From NCBI GenBank assembly GCA_001567275.1, contig LNBX01000048.1, positions 62,001-126,000 on the forward strand: a stretch of DNA of 64,000 bases, read 5' to 3'. The notes below the pieces were generated by a model. It ran no database searches. It was given only the letters and a program-made list of their open reading frames with translations, and was not told the origin of the DNA. Below are positions 1 through 40,425 of this stretch, in pieces; the first letter of the stretch is position 1, and every line of letters begins with the position of its first letter. This DNA is from Bacteroidetes bacterium OLB10. GTDB lineage: Bacteria; Bacteroidota; Bacteroidia; AKYH767-A; OLB10. The translations under genes were made by a program, and so were the position numbers.

Positions 1-419
1 ATGTGTTTGTAAAAATTGATAAAAAACAAAATCCAGGCAATAGCAATAGGAAGTGCCCAAACCGGATCGAACTCCCAATACTCTCTTCCACCGAAATGCT
101 TTGTAAAATAAGAAATGAAAATTCCGCTTATGGCAATCATCCAAAGAATCCATTGCGTTAATGCTATTGCATTATTCACCTTTTGTCCTGTAACTATCAT
201 TACACCGTTATACACACTTCCGGTTGCGCCAAGAAATATCCAGAACAATGCAGAGGATACATGCAATGGTCTCAATGAAATAAATCCTAAACTGTTTTTT
301 AAAAATTCAGGAGAGATATACACTACTGCTGCAAGGACTCCAAAAAGTAATCCTGCCAGCAACATGATAAGTGCTGAAATCAAAAAGAGATTACCTATAT
401 TCAGTTTATTTATACTCAT
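1..419 (-). CDS. norB: Nitric oxide reductase, NorB subunit (partial, N-terminal part)
   Basis: This is the first 139 codons of the catalytic haem-copper-type subunit that reduces 2 NO to N2O in the cytoplasmic membrane; the rest lies beyond the left edge. I translated the minus strand myself. Two membrane segments are visible (about residues 12-34 and 48-69). The second contains LRPLHVSSALFW, with the histidine expected to ligate low-spin haem b, a typical NorB sequence. Further on, REYWEFDPVWALP is also typical of the family. The ATG at 417-419 overlaps the end of norC by 14 bases, as in many translationally coupled norCB pairs. A quinol-type or other family member cannot be excluded without the C-terminal part, but the adjacent separate cytochrome c subunit favours cNOR. 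Confidence 0.85.
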   Translation of the reverse strand, partial: MSINKLNIGNLFLISALIMLLAGLLFGVLAAVVYISPEFLKNSLGFISLRPLHVSSALFWIFLGATGSVYNGVMIVTGQKVNNAIALTQWILWMIAISGIFISYFTKHFGGREYWEFDPVWALPIAIAWILFFINFYKH

Positions 420-828
420 CCTGTTCTATCATGCCAATGTTATTTGTTTTAAAAGCTCTTGGATCTGCTCTTCCGCTCAAATCAGTTGCTCTTAGAAATT
501 CTGCCAGCTTATGTATTTCATCATCCGTTAAATCAAATGCAGGCATTTGTTTAATTCCGGATTTGACCATTGCCTTAAGAAAGGGTTCTCCCCTTCCGGG
601 AGCTGACATAAAATTTGTGAGATCAGGTCCGAGATATCCTCCCAAACCATAGAACTGATGACAACTCTGACAATTATATTTTTGCCATACTAATCTTCCT
701 TCAGAAACAAGTTCTCTATTTAATCTTTTATCATACGCAGTGCTGAAAGGATGCAGATATATACTAAATGAATAAGCAAGAAACAGAGTGCTTAACATCA
801 GAAATATATGCCTGGCTTTAAACCTCAT
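406..828 (-). CDS. norC: Nitric oxide reductase, NorC cytochrome c subunit
   Basis: A 140-residue membrane-anchored monohaem cytochrome c that passes electrons to NorB. An N-terminal anchor covers about residues 7-25. The haem c site CQSCH is at 53-57, followed by YGLGGYLGPDLTN at 60-72, which is characteristic of NorC. KQMPAF at 93-98 supplies the likely axial Met95. The length is that of a minimal NorC. A GAAGG ribosome-binding site precedes the ATG. Only 16 bases separate it from the tyrosine phenol-lyase stop and it overlaps norB by 14 bases, so it is probably on the same transcript as both. Confidence 0.9.
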   Translation of the reverse strand: MRFKARHIFLMLSTLFLAYSFSIYLHPFSTAYDKRLNRELVSEGRLVWQKYNCQSCHQFYGLGGYLGPDLTNFMSAPGRGEPFLKAMVKSGIKQMPAFDLTDDEIHKLAEFLRATDLSGRADPRAFKTNNIGMIEQDEYK

Positions 829-844
829 ATTACCTTCGAGATAA

Positions 845-2230
845 TTATTTCAGTCTTTCAAACCTTGCCTGGAAGAAACGCAGATACTTTGGTTCATATA
901 CCATTTTAAGTCCTTTGATATATTTTCTTCTGTCATATACAGCAGCTGCTGATTCAGCAATAACATCCATGTGTGCCTGAGTATAAACCCTTCTTGGTAA
1001 AGTGAATCTGACAAGTTCGAGTTTGGGATAATAATTCTCGCCATTAGGTTTGCGTCCTGCTGAAACTATACCGCGCTCCATTGTGCGCACTCCCGAATCA
1101 ATATAAATTTCGGCTGCGAGCGTTTGAGCAGGAAACTGGTCCTGTGATAGATGAGGCAGAAAAGATTTGGCATCAACAAATATTCCATGACCACCGATAG
1201 GCTTTACAATTGGTATATTATACTCCATCATCTTATGACCAAGATATTCAACCTGCCCTACCCTTGCCTGCTGATGATTATCATCAAGACTTTCTACAAT
1301 ACCAACTGCAATTGCTTCCATATCACGGCCGGCTAAACCTCCGTAGGTATGCAAGCCTTCGTATACAACCACCATATTTCTTGCTTCTTCAAACACATCC
1401 CAATCGTTGATGGCAAGAAAACCTCCGATGTTTACCAATGCATCTTTTTTTGCACTCATTGTAGCACCATCTGTATAAGAGCAAATCTCTTTTACAATTT
1501 CGCGAATACTTTTCTTATTGTAGCCCTTTTCACGCTGCTGTATGAAATATGCATTCTCGCCAACACGTGTCATGTCATGAATAATGCGGATACCATGTTT
1601 TTTAGTATAAGCCCTCAGTTCTTTAAGGTTTGCCATACTGATTGGCTGACCTCCTGCCATATTTACATTAGTAGCTATGCATACATATGGAATTTTTTTA
1701 GCTCCATGTTTCTTTACCAGTTTGTCGAGTTTACTGATATCAACGTTGCCTTTAAATTGATGTTCGTTGAAAGGGTCATGAGCTTCATCAATGATAATAT
1801 CTGCAAATGTTCCACCTGCCAATTCCTGATGCAAACGTGTTGTTGTAAAATACATGTTACCAGGAACGATATCACCTTTCTTTATCAGAATTTGTGAGAG
1901 AATATTTTCGGCAGCGCGACCCTGATGAGTGGGAACTACATATTTGTATCCATAATACTTTTGAATAGCTTCTTCGAGAAGATAATAGCTTTTGCTTCCA
2001 GCATACGCTTCATCGCCAGTCATAAATGCACTCCATTGGCGGTCGCTCATTGAATTGGTACCGCTGTCTGTAAGCAAATCAATATAAACATCAGCTGAAT
2101 GAAGAAGAAAAGTATTGAAACCTGCTTCTTTAATTGCTTTGGTACGGTAAGGCTTGGTAGTCATTTTTAATAATTCTACCATTTTCATTTTATATGGTTC
2201 AGCCCATGAACGCTTTTTAATTATTGCCAT
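845..2230 (-). CDS. tpl: Tyrosine phenol-lyase (beta-tyrosinase)
   Basis: A 461-residue PLP enzyme of the tryptophanase/TPL family, predicted to split L-tyrosine into phenol, pyruvate and ammonia. The PLP lysine is Lys262 in MSAKKD. Tyr76 in EAYAGS matches the general acid Tyr71 of the Citrobacter enzyme. The phenol-lyase signature VRTMERGIVSAG at 381-392 carries Met384 and Arg386, the equivalents of Met379 and Arg381 that set specificity for tyrosine, where tryptophanase has VEIGS. The C-terminus LRFFQARF also follows TPL. It lies 27 bases after the tryptophanase gene. Assignment to TPL over tryptophanase rests on these specificity residues, judged by eye against known family sequences. Confidence 0.9.
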   Translation of the reverse strand: MAIIKKRSWAEPYKMKMVELLKMTTKPYRTKAIKEAGFNTFLLHSADVYIDLLTDSGTNSMSDRQWSAFMTGDEAYAGSKSYYLLEEAIQKYYGYKYVVPTHQGRAAENILSQILIKKGDIVPGNMYFTTTRLHQELAGGTFADIIIDEAHDPFNEHQFKGNVDISKLDKLVKKHGAKKIPYVCIATNVNMAGGQPISMANLKELRAYTKKHGIRIIHDMTRVGENAYFIQQREKGYNKKSIREIVKEICSYTDGATMSAKKDALVNIGGFLAINDWDVFEEARNMVVVYEGLHTYGGLAGRDMEAIAVGIVESLDDNHQQARVGQVEYLGHKMMEYNIPIVKPIGGHGIFVDAKSFLPHLSQDQFPAQTLAAEIYIDSGVRTMERGIVSAGRKPNGENYYPKLELVRFTLPRRVYTQAHMDVIAESAAAVYDRRKYIKGLKMVYEPKYLRFFQARFERLK

Positions 2231-2257: not shown

Positions 2258-3646
2258 TTATTTTAAATTTTTTTCGAGCAGTGCAGAGAAATGTCTTAGA
2301 AATGGAGGTTCATAGGTAATTTTATAACCGGTCTTTTGATTTCTTAACTCAAGAATATCATCAAATATGTCGAGAACATAATCAATATGACTTTGCGTGT
2401 AAACTCTTCGGGGAATTGCTAACCTGACCAACTCATTTATTGCAGGAATCATTTTACCGTTGACATCATTTTTTCCAAACATCAAACTTCCGATTTCAAC
2501 AGCACGAATTCCTCCTTTGATGTACAGATCACACACAAGAGCCTGTCCGGGAAATTGCTCTACCGGAATTTGATTATATAATTTCTTAGCATCTACATAA
2601 ACGGCATGACCACCAATTGGCCACACAACGGGAACTCCTTTACTTTTTAACCGTTCGCCCAGATAAGCAGTGCTCCTGATTCGATAATGCAAATAATCTT
2701 CGTCAAACACTTCAGTAAGACCAATTGCGAGGGCTTCCATATCGCGACCTGCAAGGCCACCATAAGTAGTGAATCCTTCGGAAATAATTAATAGGTTCTT
2801 ACATTTTACTGCCAGTTCTTCGTTGCGAACAGTGAGCAAACCTCCAATATTTACAATAGCATCTTTTTTGGCACTCATTACAAATGCATCACCAAGTCGG
2901 AGCATTTGTTTGGCAATTTCTTCGCATGATTTATTGCTAAATCCTTCTTCTCTGTGTTTGATGAAGTAAGCATTTTCGGCAATTCTGCAACCATCAATCA
3001 CAAGTAATAATCCATATTCGTCACAAATTTTACGTAATGCCTGAACATTAGCCATGCTTACAGGTTGCCCACCTGAAGAATTGTTTGTAACCGTAATTAT
3101 TACTGCAGCGATATTTTCTTTACCATGTTTTTTAATTAACTCCCTGAGTTTTTCAAGATGAATATTACCTTTGAAAGGAAGATCAGCTTCCGGGTCCTCA
3201 GCTTCCTCATAAACAATATCAATAGCAGTAGCACCGGTAAACTCAATGTTTGCACGAGTAGTATCAAAATGTGTGTTGCTGATAAAAACTTTTCCTTTAC
3301 CTCCGAGAATACCATAAAGGATTCTTTCGGCAGCACGACCCTGATGAGTTGGAAGTATGTAAGGCATCCCTGTAAGGTCCTTGACCACTTTCTCCAAATG
3401 CTCCCAACTTCTTGCACCTGCATAACTTTCATCTCCCATCATAATTCCGGCCCATTGTTTATCACTCATGGCACCTGTGCCGCTATCAGTTAGGAAGTCT
3501 ATAAAAACATCACTCGATTTTAGAAGAAATGGATTATAACCTGCTTTTTTTAATGCTTCTTTTCTGTATTCTTCGGTAGTTACTTTAAGAGGTTCTACCA
3601 TTTTAATTTTAAAAGGCTCTGTCAGAGTCCTCATTTTTTCACTCAT
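2258..3646 (-). CDS. tnaA: Tryptophanase
   Basis: A 462-residue PLP enzyme that converts L-tryptophan to indole, pyruvate and ammonia. The PLP lysine is Lys261 in MSAKKD; Tyr75 lies in ESYAGAR; the PLP-binding SGGQPVSMAN is at 191-200. The specificity loop reads IRAVEIGSLMFG (380-391) as in Escherichia coli TnaA, without the Met/Arg pair of tyrosine phenol-lyase, and the C-terminus has LRHFSA. It is the first gene of the tnaA-tpl-norCB run and has its own -7 element and palindrome upstream. I see no TnaC-like leader peptide with a Trp codon between promoter and start; the predicted leader is only about 18 bases long, so E. coli style attenuation is unlikely. Confidence 0.92.
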   Translation of the reverse strand: MSEKMRTLTEPFKIKMVEPLKVTTEEYRKEALKKAGYNPFLLKSSDVFIDFLTDSGTGAMSDKQWAGIMMGDESYAGARSWEHLEKVVKDLTGMPYILPTHQGRAAERILYGILGGKGKVFISNTHFDTTRANIEFTGATAIDIVYEEAEDPEADLPFKGNIHLEKLRELIKKHGKENIAAVIITVTNNSSGGQPVSMANVQALRKICDEYGLLLVIDGCRIAENAYFIKHREEGFSNKSCEEIAKQMLRLGDAFVMSAKKDAIVNIGGLLTVRNEELAVKCKNLLIISEGFTTYGGLAGRDMEALAIGLTEVFDEDYLHYRIRSTAYLGERLKSKGVPVVWPIGGHAVYVDAKKLYNQIPVEQFPGQALVCDLYIKGGIRAVEIGSLMFGKNDVNGKMIPAINELVRLAIPRRVYTQSHIDYVLDIFDDILELRNQKTGYKITYEPPFLRHFSALLEKNLK

Positions 3647-3668: not shown

Positions 3669-3676
3669 CAAAATTA
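3669..3676 (-). promoter_or_regulatory. -7 element of the tnaA-tpl-norCB promoter
   Basis: On the minus strand the sequence is TAATTTTG, a perfect match to the Bacteroidota -7 consensus TAnnTTTG. The start codon is 22 bases beyond it. No clear -33 TTTG is present at the usual spacing, which fits an activator-dependent promoter. Confidence 0.6.
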
Positions 3677-3698: not shown

Positions 3699-3714
3699 TA
3701 TGACGAAAGTCATA
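3699..3714. promoter_or_regulatory. CRP/FNR-like palindromic operator upstream of tnaA
   Basis: TATGAC-GAAA-GTCATA, two 6-base arms with a 4-base spacer. The core TGAC-N4-GTCA resembles half-sites of the CRP/FNR superfamily (for example TTGAC-N4-GTCAA). Its centre is about 42 bases before the transcription start predicted from the -7 element, the class II activator position. The binding protein is inferred, not seen. A near-identical core lies upstream of doxX at 39360-39371. Confidence 0.55.
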
Positions 3715-38030: not shown

Positions 38031-38579
38031 CTAGAAAAGTGAATCGTGCTCATGCACAACCAACAGAGGAACCTTGGTATTGAACGATACTTTCTTTGAC
38101 AGGCTTGGCTGATACAAATCCTTAAACAGGTTTCTGTGTCGTGTAAACATCACCAAGGCATCTGCCTTATATTTCTTTAAAAAGAAATCTATACCTTCCT
38201 TCACTGAAATATCAGTACACACAAAACCTGACTGTTTAGGATATTTTACTTTCTTTCTCACAAGAGCTCTGATTTTCTTAACATCAACATCATCACCTGA
38301 GAGTGTCGTTTTATCTACGTATAAAAACAGCAATTCACTGTTAAAGACCTTAGCTAAAGGTATTACAACCTTTACTCTGTCCAAATTATCATCAGACAGG
38401 TCAGTTGCATACACCATTTTTCTCAGTCCTGAAAACTTTGCCCCCCGAGGTATCAAAAACACAGGACAGGGAGCATTTTTAGTTACTCTGGCAGCATTAC
38501 TTCCGATGAGTATTCGCTCTGCAGCACCGGTACCTGTTGTACCCATTACAATTAAATCAGCTTTTTTCTCGGCAGCCAC
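38031..38579 (-). CDS. Universal stress protein, C-terminal part (frameshifted gene)
   Basis: The larger part (182 residues) of a two-domain UspA protein. LIVMGTTGTGAAERILIGSNAARVTKNAPCPVFLIP is split here as the ATP-binding G-x2-G-x9-G-S/T pattern (MGTTGTG, LIGSNA). A second Usp fold follows, starting RKMVYATDLSDDNL, with a degenerate nucleotide motif. The frame is open upstream of 38579 and reads FKDKFSNIKVELVLQQGLAS. Deleting one base in the A6T6 run at 38652-38663 joins it to the 38650-38877 fragment to give 281 residues, the usual length of tandem Usp proteins. Confidence 0.75.
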   Translation of the reverse strand: MAAEKKADLIVMGTTGTGAAERILIGSNAARVTKNAPCPVFLIPRGAKFSGLRKMVYATDLSDDNLDRVKVVIPLAKVFNSELLFLYVDKTTLSGDDVDVKKIRALVRKKVKYPKQSGFVCTDISVKEGIDFFLKKYKADALVMFTRHRNLFKDLYQPSLSKKVSFNTKVPLLVVHEHDSLF

Positions 38580-38649
38580 CTCATTGATTCTGGCTGATGC
38601 AAGTCCTTGTTGAAGGACTAATTCAACTTTGATGTTACTAAACTTATCT

Positions 38650-38877
38650 TTAAAAAATTTTTTCTTTAAACTTTCTCAGTTTTTCAGCAGCTGCATCGTG
38701 CAGTATTTTAAAATCATACTGCATGGTTACAAACGTTACATCCGTGTAAAGTATTGGTGTTTCGAATGTGTGCAAGAGTAGCAATTTTGCATTTAATTTC
38801 AATGCCATTTCAGCAGCATAAGCTACTGCATGAGTTGCATTTTTTGAAAAATCTGTCGGACAAAGAATTGATTTCAT
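38650..38877 (-). CDS. Universal stress protein, N-terminal part (frameshifted gene)
   Basis: The first 75 residues of the tandem UspA protein continued at 38031-38579. KSILCPTDFSKNATHAVAYA is the Usp N-terminal strand and first helix with the conserved Asp8. It stops after KEKIF at the A6T6 run. It lies 11 bases after the doxX stop, so it is transcribed with doxX and would be under the same CRP/FNR-like operator. Confidence 0.75.
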   Translation of the reverse strand: MKSILCPTDFSKNATHAVAYAAEMALKLNAKLLLLHTFETPILYTDVTFVTMQYDFKILHDAAAEKLRKFKEKIF

Positions 38878-38888
38878 ACGTAAGTTGT

Positions 38889-39311
38889 TTAATAAATATT
38901 AAAATAATAATCAAGTGAATAAATATTCCATGAAATTGGGGCAATCATAAGAAATATCAACAGTGCAAATCGGGGAAAGAAGTACTGCATATCCCACATA
39001 GGGCGAGCTATACTGAAAGCTATTGCGGCACCAATAAGATTTAGCCCAAGTATTGCCAATACCGGTTGCATGAACAGTCCCGGCAGCAGTAATATTCCAC
39101 CTAAGAACTCAATCCAGGAAGAAATAAAAATAGAAGGTTTTATCAATAGACCAGGAATACCACGCCTGACTAACTCAGGTTTGTAAACAGATTCTACACC
39201 GGAGATTTTAAACTTAAATAATTTGTCATATCCCTGAAACAGGAATAACACTCCTAATAATATTCTGCTCAATAACACTGCGAATGCTTCCCACTCTAAT
39301 ATCTGATTCAT
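38889..39311 (-). CDS. DoxX-family membrane protein
   Basis: A 140-residue inner-membrane protein with four predicted helices (about 8-27, 58-75, 80-100, 110-130). LSRILLGVLFLFQGYDKLF at the N-terminus is the typical DoxX start. DoxX-like proteins are tied to redox stress and quinone-linked sulfur metabolism in some bacteria, but this group has no settled function. First gene of a doxX-usp pair with a palindromic operator. Confidence 0.8.
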   Translation of the reverse strand: MNQILEWEAFAVLLSRILLGVLFLFQGYDKLFKFKISGVESVYKPELVRRGIPGLLIKPSIFISSWIEFLGGILLLPGLFMQPVLAILGLNLIGAAIAFSIARPMWDMQYFFPRFALLIFLMIAPISWNIYSLDYYFNIY

Positions 39312-39328
39312 ACATCTCTATTTCATTA

Positions 39329-39336
39329 CAAAATAA
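39329..39336 (-). promoter_or_regulatory. Probable -7 element of doxX-usp
   Basis: TTATTTTG on the minus strand, seven of eight positions like TAnnTTTG, 17 bases before the doxX start. Weak on its own; its distance of 23 bases from the palindrome matches the tnaA promoter (24). Confidence 0.4.
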
Positions 39337-39359
39337 ACATATTATATTCCGAAATACTG

Positions 39360-39371
39360 TGACTTTTGTCA
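39360..39371. promoter_or_regulatory. CRP/FNR-like palindromic operator upstream of doxX
   Basis: TGAC-TTTT-GTCA, within GTGACTTTTGTCAA. Same core as the tnaA site at 3699-3714 and centred about 41 bases before the predicted doxX transcription start. It may also affect the divergent YitT gene, whose predicted start is about 75 bases from its centre. Confidence 0.5.
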
Positions 39372-39427
39372 ATCAAGAAAAAGAATCTTCGTCATCAAAA
39401 TTAAATTACAATAAGAAAATAAAATAG

Positions 39428-39435
39428 TAGATTTG
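39428..39435 (+). promoter_or_regulatory. -7 element of the YitT gene
   Basis: TAGATTTG, perfect TAnnTTTG. It overlaps a TTG at 39433 that could otherwise be taken as the start, so the ATG at 39451 is preferred, with a short leader. Confidence 0.5.
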
Positions 39436-39450
39436 CATGAATCTGAATCT

Positions 39451-40425
39451 ATGTTTGAATACATTTTAGATAAGTTTTTTCATTTCAGGCGTGATTCCAA
39501 CGGCAACAGAAAGACACGTTCGCGTTATGTAGTAGCTCACGATTATTTCCGATTCAGGATTGCTCTCCGACAAACATTATTGTCATTTGTATTTATATCA
39601 TTGGGAGTGCTTTCAGCCGGGTTTGGTTTACGGGGATTTTTATTGCCTAACAAATTTATAGATGGAGGTGTAACCGGCATATCACTGCTCGTAAGCTTAA
39701 AAACGGCAATAGATGTCTCTATTCTGATAGTAGTAATCAATATCCCTTTTCTGATACTGGCTTACCGTCAGATTGATTTAAAATTTTTTGTTAAGAGTAT
39801 TGTAGCGATTATATGTCTTGCTCTTGCAGTACATTATATTCCTTACCCAATCGTAACCAATGACAAATTGTTGGTTTCAATATTCGGTGGATTTTTTCTG
39901 GGTATGGGAATTGGATTTGCCATAAGAGGTGGTTCCGTACTTGACGGAACTGAAGTTCTTGCAATTTACATAGGACGAAAGTCAGGCCTATCCATAGGCG
40001 AAATTATTTTTGCTTTTAACATTGTAATTTTCAGTTTTGCTGCATTTCTCATATCCATTGAAGTTGCATTATACTCTGTACTTATATACATGGCTGCATC
40101 ACGAACGGTTGATTTTATTGTTGAAGGAGTAGAAGAATATACCGGAGTCACAATCATCTCATCTCATGGTGAGGAAATACGCAGGCTAATTACTGAAAAA
40201 CTAAATATGGGTGTAACCATATACAGCGGTAAAAGAGGCTATGGCAAAAACGGCCACAATCTTTCAGAGATAGAAATACTATATACCGTTATCACAAGGC
40301 TTGAAGTAAACAAACTGAAAGTAGAAATTGAACATATAGACCCTCACGCTTTTATCATAATGAATACGGTAAGAGATACAAAAGGTGGTATGATAAAAAA
40401 GAGAACTGTGAAAGATTTTAAATAA
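39451..40425 (+). CDS. YitT-family membrane protein
   Basis: A 324-residue protein from the ATG at 39451 with five or six membrane helices (DUF161) and a soluble C-terminal DUF2179 domain containing GVTIYSGKRGYGKNGHNL and HAFIIMNTV. GGVTGISLL and GGSVLDGTEVLAIYIGRKSG are family signatures with the DUF161 inverted repeat. Transport substrate is unknown. Divergent from doxX and ending at a hairpin shared with the ompH gene. Confidence 0.88.
   Translation: MFEYILDKFFHFRRDSNGNRKTRSRYVVAHDYFRFRIALRQTLLSFVFISLGVLSAGFGLRGFLLPNKFIDGGVTGISLLVSLKTAIDVSILIVVINIPFLILAYRQIDLKFFVKSIVAIICLALAVHYIPYPIVTNDKLLVSIFGGFFLGMGIGFAIRGGSVLDGTEVLAIYIGRKSGLSIGEIIFAFNIVIFSFAAFLISIEVALYSVLIYMAASRTVDFIVEGVEEYTGVTIISSHGEEIRRLITEKLNMGVTIYSGKRGYGKNGHNLSEIEILYTVITRLEVNKLKVEIEHIDPHAFIIMNTVRDTKGGMIKKRTVKDFK

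Follow-up and report, generated by a model that had tools for sequence, protein, structure and literature searches.

The palindrome between the divergent doxX and yitT genes of Bacteroidetes bacterium OLB10 is, very probably, a genuine on-switch site, predicted to act at a fixed distance from the doxX-usp promoter, and the genes that share it very probably form a regulon of low-oxygen respiration, nitric-oxide removal, and copper and sulfur handling common to many relatives. The best overall explanation, to which we assign a probability of about 0.6, is that the palindrome would be a class II operator of a low-oxygen/NO regulon common in Bacteroidia, controlled by a protein that fuses a receiver to a CRP-type DNA-binding domain and is served by a FixL-like kinase. 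A sequence-only reading of the window (the whole 64,000-nt stretch of contig LNBX01000048.1, positions 62,001 to 126,000) had proposed that two of its promoters share a CRP/FNR-type regulon with fixed geometry. That proposal was supported and enlarged by the spacing peak, the cross-genome counts, and the footprint described below, and its regulator was refined.

The putative operator, TGACTTTTGTCA at 39360-39371 (TTGACAAAAGTCAC in its extended form on the doxX strand), is an exact TGAC-N4-GTCA match, a dyad of two TGA-type half sites with a spacer inside the 4-6 bp range of class II sites; one half is GTGAC. As claimed from the sequence alone, it stands 23 nt from a doxX -7-like element, TTATTTTG (39329-39336, minus strand), with one mismatch to TAnnTTTG. 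The doxX gene (38889-39311, minus strand) encodes a 140-aa membrane protein of the DoxX family (PF07681, E 2.6e-8). The yitT-family gene on the other side (39433-40425, plus strand; PF02588 and PF10035) has its own perfect -7, TAGATTTG at 39428-39435, with 56 nt separating it from the palindrome. As this distance was variable (56, 54, and 55 nt across three genomes) and too long, the palindrome was rejected as a class II site for yitT. The universal stress protein gene usp (38031-38877, minus strand; PF00582, E 2.2e-23 on its 3' part) lies in two frames, broken after 75 residues. Compared with the intact 281-aa homolog in a same-genus genome (G023), it differs in length by 1 base, in an A-rich run, and its remainder is well conserved, so the split would be due either to an error in the assembly or to a break that arose very recently.

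The second putative operator copy lies upstream of tnaA at 3701-3712 (TGACTTTCGTCA on the tnaA strand, 3712-3701), 24 nt from a -7 element, TAATTTTG (3669-3676, minus strand), without mismatches to TAnnTTTG. The near-identical geometry noted earlier for this promoter was confirmed, and G023 keeps the site at the same N24 spacing. The first gene of the apparent operon encodes a tryptophanase-type lyase (tnaA, 2258-3646, minus strand; NF009709, 689 bits, cut-off 285), which scored below the cut-offs of the TnaA equivalog profiles. It is followed by genes for a tyrosine phenol-lyase (845-2230, minus strand; TIGR02618, 738.5 bits, cut-off 720.7) and a norC-like cytochrome c (406-828, minus strand; PF13442, E 2.6e-11), and, just outside the window, by a 448-aa norB-like gene (L358:4074-5420); we take the last two to be norC and norB by eye. 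All four frames are on one strand, overlapping or close, and aromatic amino-acid lyases together with an NO reductase make an apparently unusual operon. The gene classes named beforehand (NO reduction, aromatic amino-acid breakdown, DoxX, and Usp) agreed with this gene order and with the occurrence of the doxX-usp site in related genera.

The window holds only these two palindromes, as had been stated, vs 0.58 expected. Since at least two copies arose in 12 of 100 shuffles, the pair is not significant when taken alone. Genome-wide, TGAC-N4-GTCA was rarer than its reversed control (26 vs 85 copies), and enrichment of the palindrome by itself was rejected. The sequence-only reading had held that chance-level occurrence throughout the genome without promoter bias would count against a regulon; the palindrome was indeed not over-represented, and only its placement was. 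Five of the 26 copies were placed as in a promoter, with a -7-like element (no more than one mismatch) at N23 or N24, and a sixth copy with such an element lay inside a 538-aa frame. An exact NAnnTTTG at N23 accompanied three of the 26, with tnaA exact at N24 and doxX at N23 with one mismatch.

The coupled pattern of palindrome and -7 at N23/N24, with the same pattern read backwards as control, gave 4 exact matches vs 0 in the OLB10 genome, 48 vs 3 in 24 family genomes (present in 21 of the 24), and 372 vs 52 in 247 Bacteroidia genomes. When the gap was left free from 8 to 37 in the family genomes, 41 of the 98 matches listed fell at N23 and 7 at N24, the remaining 50 being spread over 28 other spacings at around 1.8 per spacing. 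At the family level, chance is excluded for the coupled pattern, and what is remarkable is the placement of the palindrome at a fixed -7 distance, not its abundance. Class II activators sit near -41.5, and promoters of Bacteroidota have -7/-33 elements; the N23 peak corresponds to such a fixed position, as measured to the -7 element rather than to a mapped start. The next highest spacing was a minor peak at N36 (8 matches), some of it due to repeats or to a second -7 of one site. Enlarging the regulon of the OLB10 genome by allowing two mismatches was rejected, as the counts fell below those of the controls (102 vs 149 at N23, 126 vs 176 at N24), making weak sites indistinguishable from noise.

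Besides doxX-usp and tnaA, the OLB10 genome carries a coupled site before genes for MbnP and an MbnH/MauG-type di-heme enzyme, and further sites before a metallo-beta-lactamase/rhodanese gene divergent from a ccoI-like ATPase gene and before an OsmC-led sulfur operon, the last with a GTGAC half as at doxX. One-mismatch sites precede a sucA-like gene and, at C5:21655, an operon with two further MbnP-like genes. In the latter region (L231:2177-5000) the site is followed by a small Cys-containing protein, a 321-aa protein, and the two MbnP-like genes, a probable copper operon driven by that site. Among 29 family loci (L089-L117), four had peroxidase-like genes downstream of the site, six had the gene for an unknown protein of 133-145 aa, with ccoI divergent from it in four of these, and three had rhodanese genes, with ccoI divergent in one; tnaA-, MbnP-, OsmC-, TauE-, Ric-, and YceI-like genes occurred in single cases. 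L101 and L104 were doubtful, no suitable downstream gene was found in L100, L114, and L116, and the rest had other functions. Names given here by eye (Ric/ScdA, YceI, TauE, sucA, hemA, hemN, and cytochrome c peroxidase) are presumed. The target list is of the kind expected of an FNR or FixK protein. The 133-145-aa protein (L175:7537-7938), whose gene carries the site in several genomes, matched no Pfam family and had homologs in 21 of 80 loci that contain the candidate regulator gene, near that gene and ccoI.

The OLB10 genome encodes four HTH_Crp_2 proteins. The most likely regulator among them is a 352-aa protein with receiver, cNMP, and HTH_Crp_2 domains in one chain (G000:C13:69196-70251, G000 being this genome), paired with a FixL-like PAS histidine kinase (G000:C24:102953-104182). 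This pair is favored because the two genes are usually adjacent, because sites cluster around the fusion gene, and because presence of the fusion correlates with site number. A PAS histidine kinase gene was the direct neighbor of the fusion gene in 72 of the 80 loci. The 1.35 Mb around these loci contained 21 sites vs 0 for the control, 20 of them at N23, where around 1 would be expected at the rate seen class-wide in genomes with the fusion. These sites included those of ccoN (four), ccoI, ccoG, hemN, hemA (three), doxX, Hsp20, the 133-145-aa protein, and the fusion gene itself (L297); one lay inside a fusion frame (L351), and no informative gene was found for L281, L285, and both L287 sites. 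The fusion occurs in every family genome except G013 (23 of 24) and in 124 of the 247 class genomes, and the mean number of sites per genome was 2.19 with it and 0.81 without it (controls 0.24 and 0.18), as raw counts over genomes that ignore kinship. In the OLB10 genome the kinase and fusion genes are unlinked, and no site with a -7 was found beside or before either.

Features of the fusion protein were consistent with this assignment. In FNR and CRP, a Glu and an Arg of the recognition helix read the TGA core. The corresponding helix of the fusion, TATESLIR, was nearly invariant in 22 sequences (ESLIR fully so) and keeps both residues without the CRP Arg that contacts the outer G, which would fit the variable outer base of the box. 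Of the four conserved cysteines of an Fe-S FNR there was no counterpart, only Cys51, in the receiver, being invariant among the 22 fusion proteins. In place of the RSA of the cAMP-CRP phosphate-binding cassette, with its Arg, the fusion has ESA, as judged by eye. Lacking both the Fe-S cysteine set and the cAMP Arg, the fusion should receive its signal from the kinase. The FNR-type regulator of the sequence-only reading stood as far as the CRP/FNR superfamily is concerned; it is probably not a classical Fe-S FNR, rather the receiver-CRP fusion with its FixL-like kinase and perhaps a second CRP protein.

The PAS domain of the kinase resembles the heme domains of FixL (E 4e-12) and DosP (E 2e-12). 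In those two proteins a His ligates the heme; the aligned His is present in 57 of the 74 kinases compared, the OLB10 kinase among them. The distal Arg of FixL is absent from the OLB10 kinase in the alignment. In this kinase (L242:1486-2739), position 65 of the alignment is a His and position 81 a Met; each is conserved in 57 of the 74 kinases, and the two possibly form a heme pair.

The fusion is not the sole reader of the box, as the 60 genomes that have only a second CRP-family protein (the C45 type; 209 aa, G000:C45:57947-58573 in OLB10) still had 1.30 sites on average vs 0.17 for the control. Across the 247 genomes, the mean was 0.35 with neither protein (n=63), 1.74 with the fusion only (n=35), and 2.37 with both (n=89), with controls of 0.17-0.26. 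The simplest reading is probably that the two proteins share the box, with the fusion as the likelier regulator of the two. That the C45-type protein would be the main reader, sulfur- or redox-linked and with doxX-usp in its regulon, we regard as unlikely. Its gene adjoins the OsmC/rhodanese operon, and in six genomes (G000, G023, G130, G182, G239, and G158) a site is found no more than about 80 bp past the gene; in the OLB10 genome it is directly beside a site, unlike the fusion and kinase genes. Its helix SSREVISR, which we take to be CRP-like, would favor GTGAC halves such as those at the doxX and OsmC sites. However, the 35 genomes with the fusion and without the C45 type retained their 1.74 sites vs 0.26 for the control; the cco, hem, and doxX sites cluster around the fusion gene; and at the doxX sites of G011, G012, and L288 the final bases are GTCAT rather than GTCAC. 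The base after GTCA was C in 13 of 41 C45-only and 1 of 13 fusion-only sites among the 150 matches listed of 372, without clean separation, and as a marker of the acting regulator it is suggestive only.

A classical Fe-S FNR-like protein (G000:C34, 237 aa, N-terminal CITCKIRECSILNEC) is a much poorer candidate, and we consider it very unlikely to read the box. Its best NCBIfam matches are FnrL and Fnr (E around 1e-23), it has N-terminal cysteines, and its gene is next to a cytochrome oxidase cluster, yet it falls below all NCBIfam cut-offs and no exact site lies near its gene. Among the CRP-family proteins fetched, its closest homologs (51-94%) occur in two other family genomes only, with two more at around 30%, whereas sites extend to 21 of the 24 family genomes and persist at the same genes in relatives seemingly without a C34-type protein. 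In its locus (L235:9852-12554), the Fnr-like protein with its N-terminal Cys cluster is encoded between cytochrome oxidase genes and a gene for a hemerythrin-like protein. Support of the kind found for the fusion and the C45 type was absent for this protein and for the fourth HTH_Crp_2 protein (C39, 218 aa).

At the doxX-usp promoter, G000, G023, and G022 have the same N23 site. The two relatives, whose DoxX proteins are the closest found (87% identity in G023, 69% in G022), keep ATTGAC(A/G)AAAGTCAC and the 23-nt gap despite changed surroundings. The lack of genome-wide enrichment, the shuffled windows, and the imperfect -7 might suggest that the palindrome matches by chance in AT-rich promoter DNA. 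This reading is highly improbable and already largely refuted by the footprint, 14 of 15 columns being identical in the three same-genus genomes vs 44 of 104 in the remaining sequence from the yitT -7 to the doxX start, at constant N23, and by recurrence of the site before doxX in other genera. In G011 and G012, with DoxX only 36-38% identical, a one-mismatch form of the palindrome, TTGATATCTGTCAT, stands 23 nt from a perfect -7 before a doxX-usp pair, and doxX with a site was also found in a Sphingobacteriaceae MAG (L288). The doxX gene of G021 has a two-mismatch site at N22 and that of G015 a weak site. No such site was found near the start of 8 of the 15 doxX genes examined (G016, G002, G014, G019, G018, G017, G001, and G020; the start itself was missed by the script in G019). 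The site is therefore tied to doxX-usp in several genera, not to every doxX. The imperfect doxX -7 had been thought to make this site weaker than that of tnaA; the one mismatch is real, and it weakens the site little, given that the site stays conserved while the -7 changes.

The observed sites, spacing, conservation, target genes, and gene linkage are consistent with a circuit in which binding, phosphorylation, heme or oxygen sensing, and the direction of regulation would be as follows. Low oxygen or NO would alter the PAS domain of the FixL-like kinase, which would then phosphorylate the receiver of the fusion. The CRP-type part of the fusion, a CRP/FNR-superfamily activator, would bind TGAC-N4-GTCA as a dimer; at doxX-usp it would sit around 40 bp upstream of the start, in the class II position, replacing the -33 element and recruiting RNA polymerase to the weak -7. 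Such a circuit would amount to a FixL-FixJ-FixK pathway in which a single protein combines FixJ and FixK.

The FixK box is TTGAT-N4-ATCAA, in contrast to the nTGAC-N4-GTCAn found here. In the excerpted text of PMC4999443, FixK and FNR regulons containing cco, hemA, and hemN are established, and the FixL-FixJ-FixK system of rhizobia and Caulobacterales resembles ours in its PAS sensor kinase, receiver, and CRP/FNR-type DNA binding, and in its cco, hemN, and hemA targets. In our relatives, ccoI, ccoN, ccoG, hemN, and hemA carried the site (the hem genes by eye). In that system, however, FixJ carries an HTH output of its own and FixK is a second protein, whereas here the receiver and CRP-type domains share a single 352-aa protein without a FixJ-type output domain, and the OLB10 kinase differs from FixL in lacking the distal Arg. 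The FNR regulons of Proteobacteria have a dyad with a 4-bp spacer near -41.5, respiratory and NO genes, and Usp targets, all of which are paralleled here; the differences are the missing Fe-S cysteine set of the fusion, an inner base of C rather than T in the box, and the Bacteroidota -7 promoter.

Within Bacteroidota, HcpR of Bacteroides and Porphyromonas is described in the portion of PMC13370916 drawn on here as a CRP-family regulator of nitrosative-stress genes; it is likened to our system by protein type, not by box, and differs in being a heme-binding one-component protein. Crp BT4338 of Bacteroides, likewise a CRP-family global regulator, differs in its 22-bp motif (wwwTATGTTnTAnAACATAwww) and its sugar genes (PMC3878776, in excerpt), and the consulted part of a 2021 metatranscriptome study assigned Bacteroidota CRP/FNR homologs only loosely to MalR (PMC8510549). 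Neither this box nor a receiver-CRP protein regulating cbb3 in Bacteroidota was found described in the open-licence literature searched, and this absence is weak evidence that the box and the cbb3 role of the fusion are new.

For the wider group, we tentatively suggest, at slightly less than even odds, that in around half of the sampled Bacteroidia the main low-oxygen/NO switch may be a one-protein FixJ-FixK served by a heme-PAS kinase. It would read TGAC-N4-GTCA at exactly 23 nt from the -7 and share this box with a second CRP regulator of sulfur and copper genes. Low-oxygen switching in Bacteroidota outside the gut genera seems poorly described, and the question becomes directly testable with an exactly spaced motif, a list of targets, and a named pair of regulators. 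DoxX, Usp, MbnP, and the 133-145-aa unknown protein would thereby gain a physiological setting.
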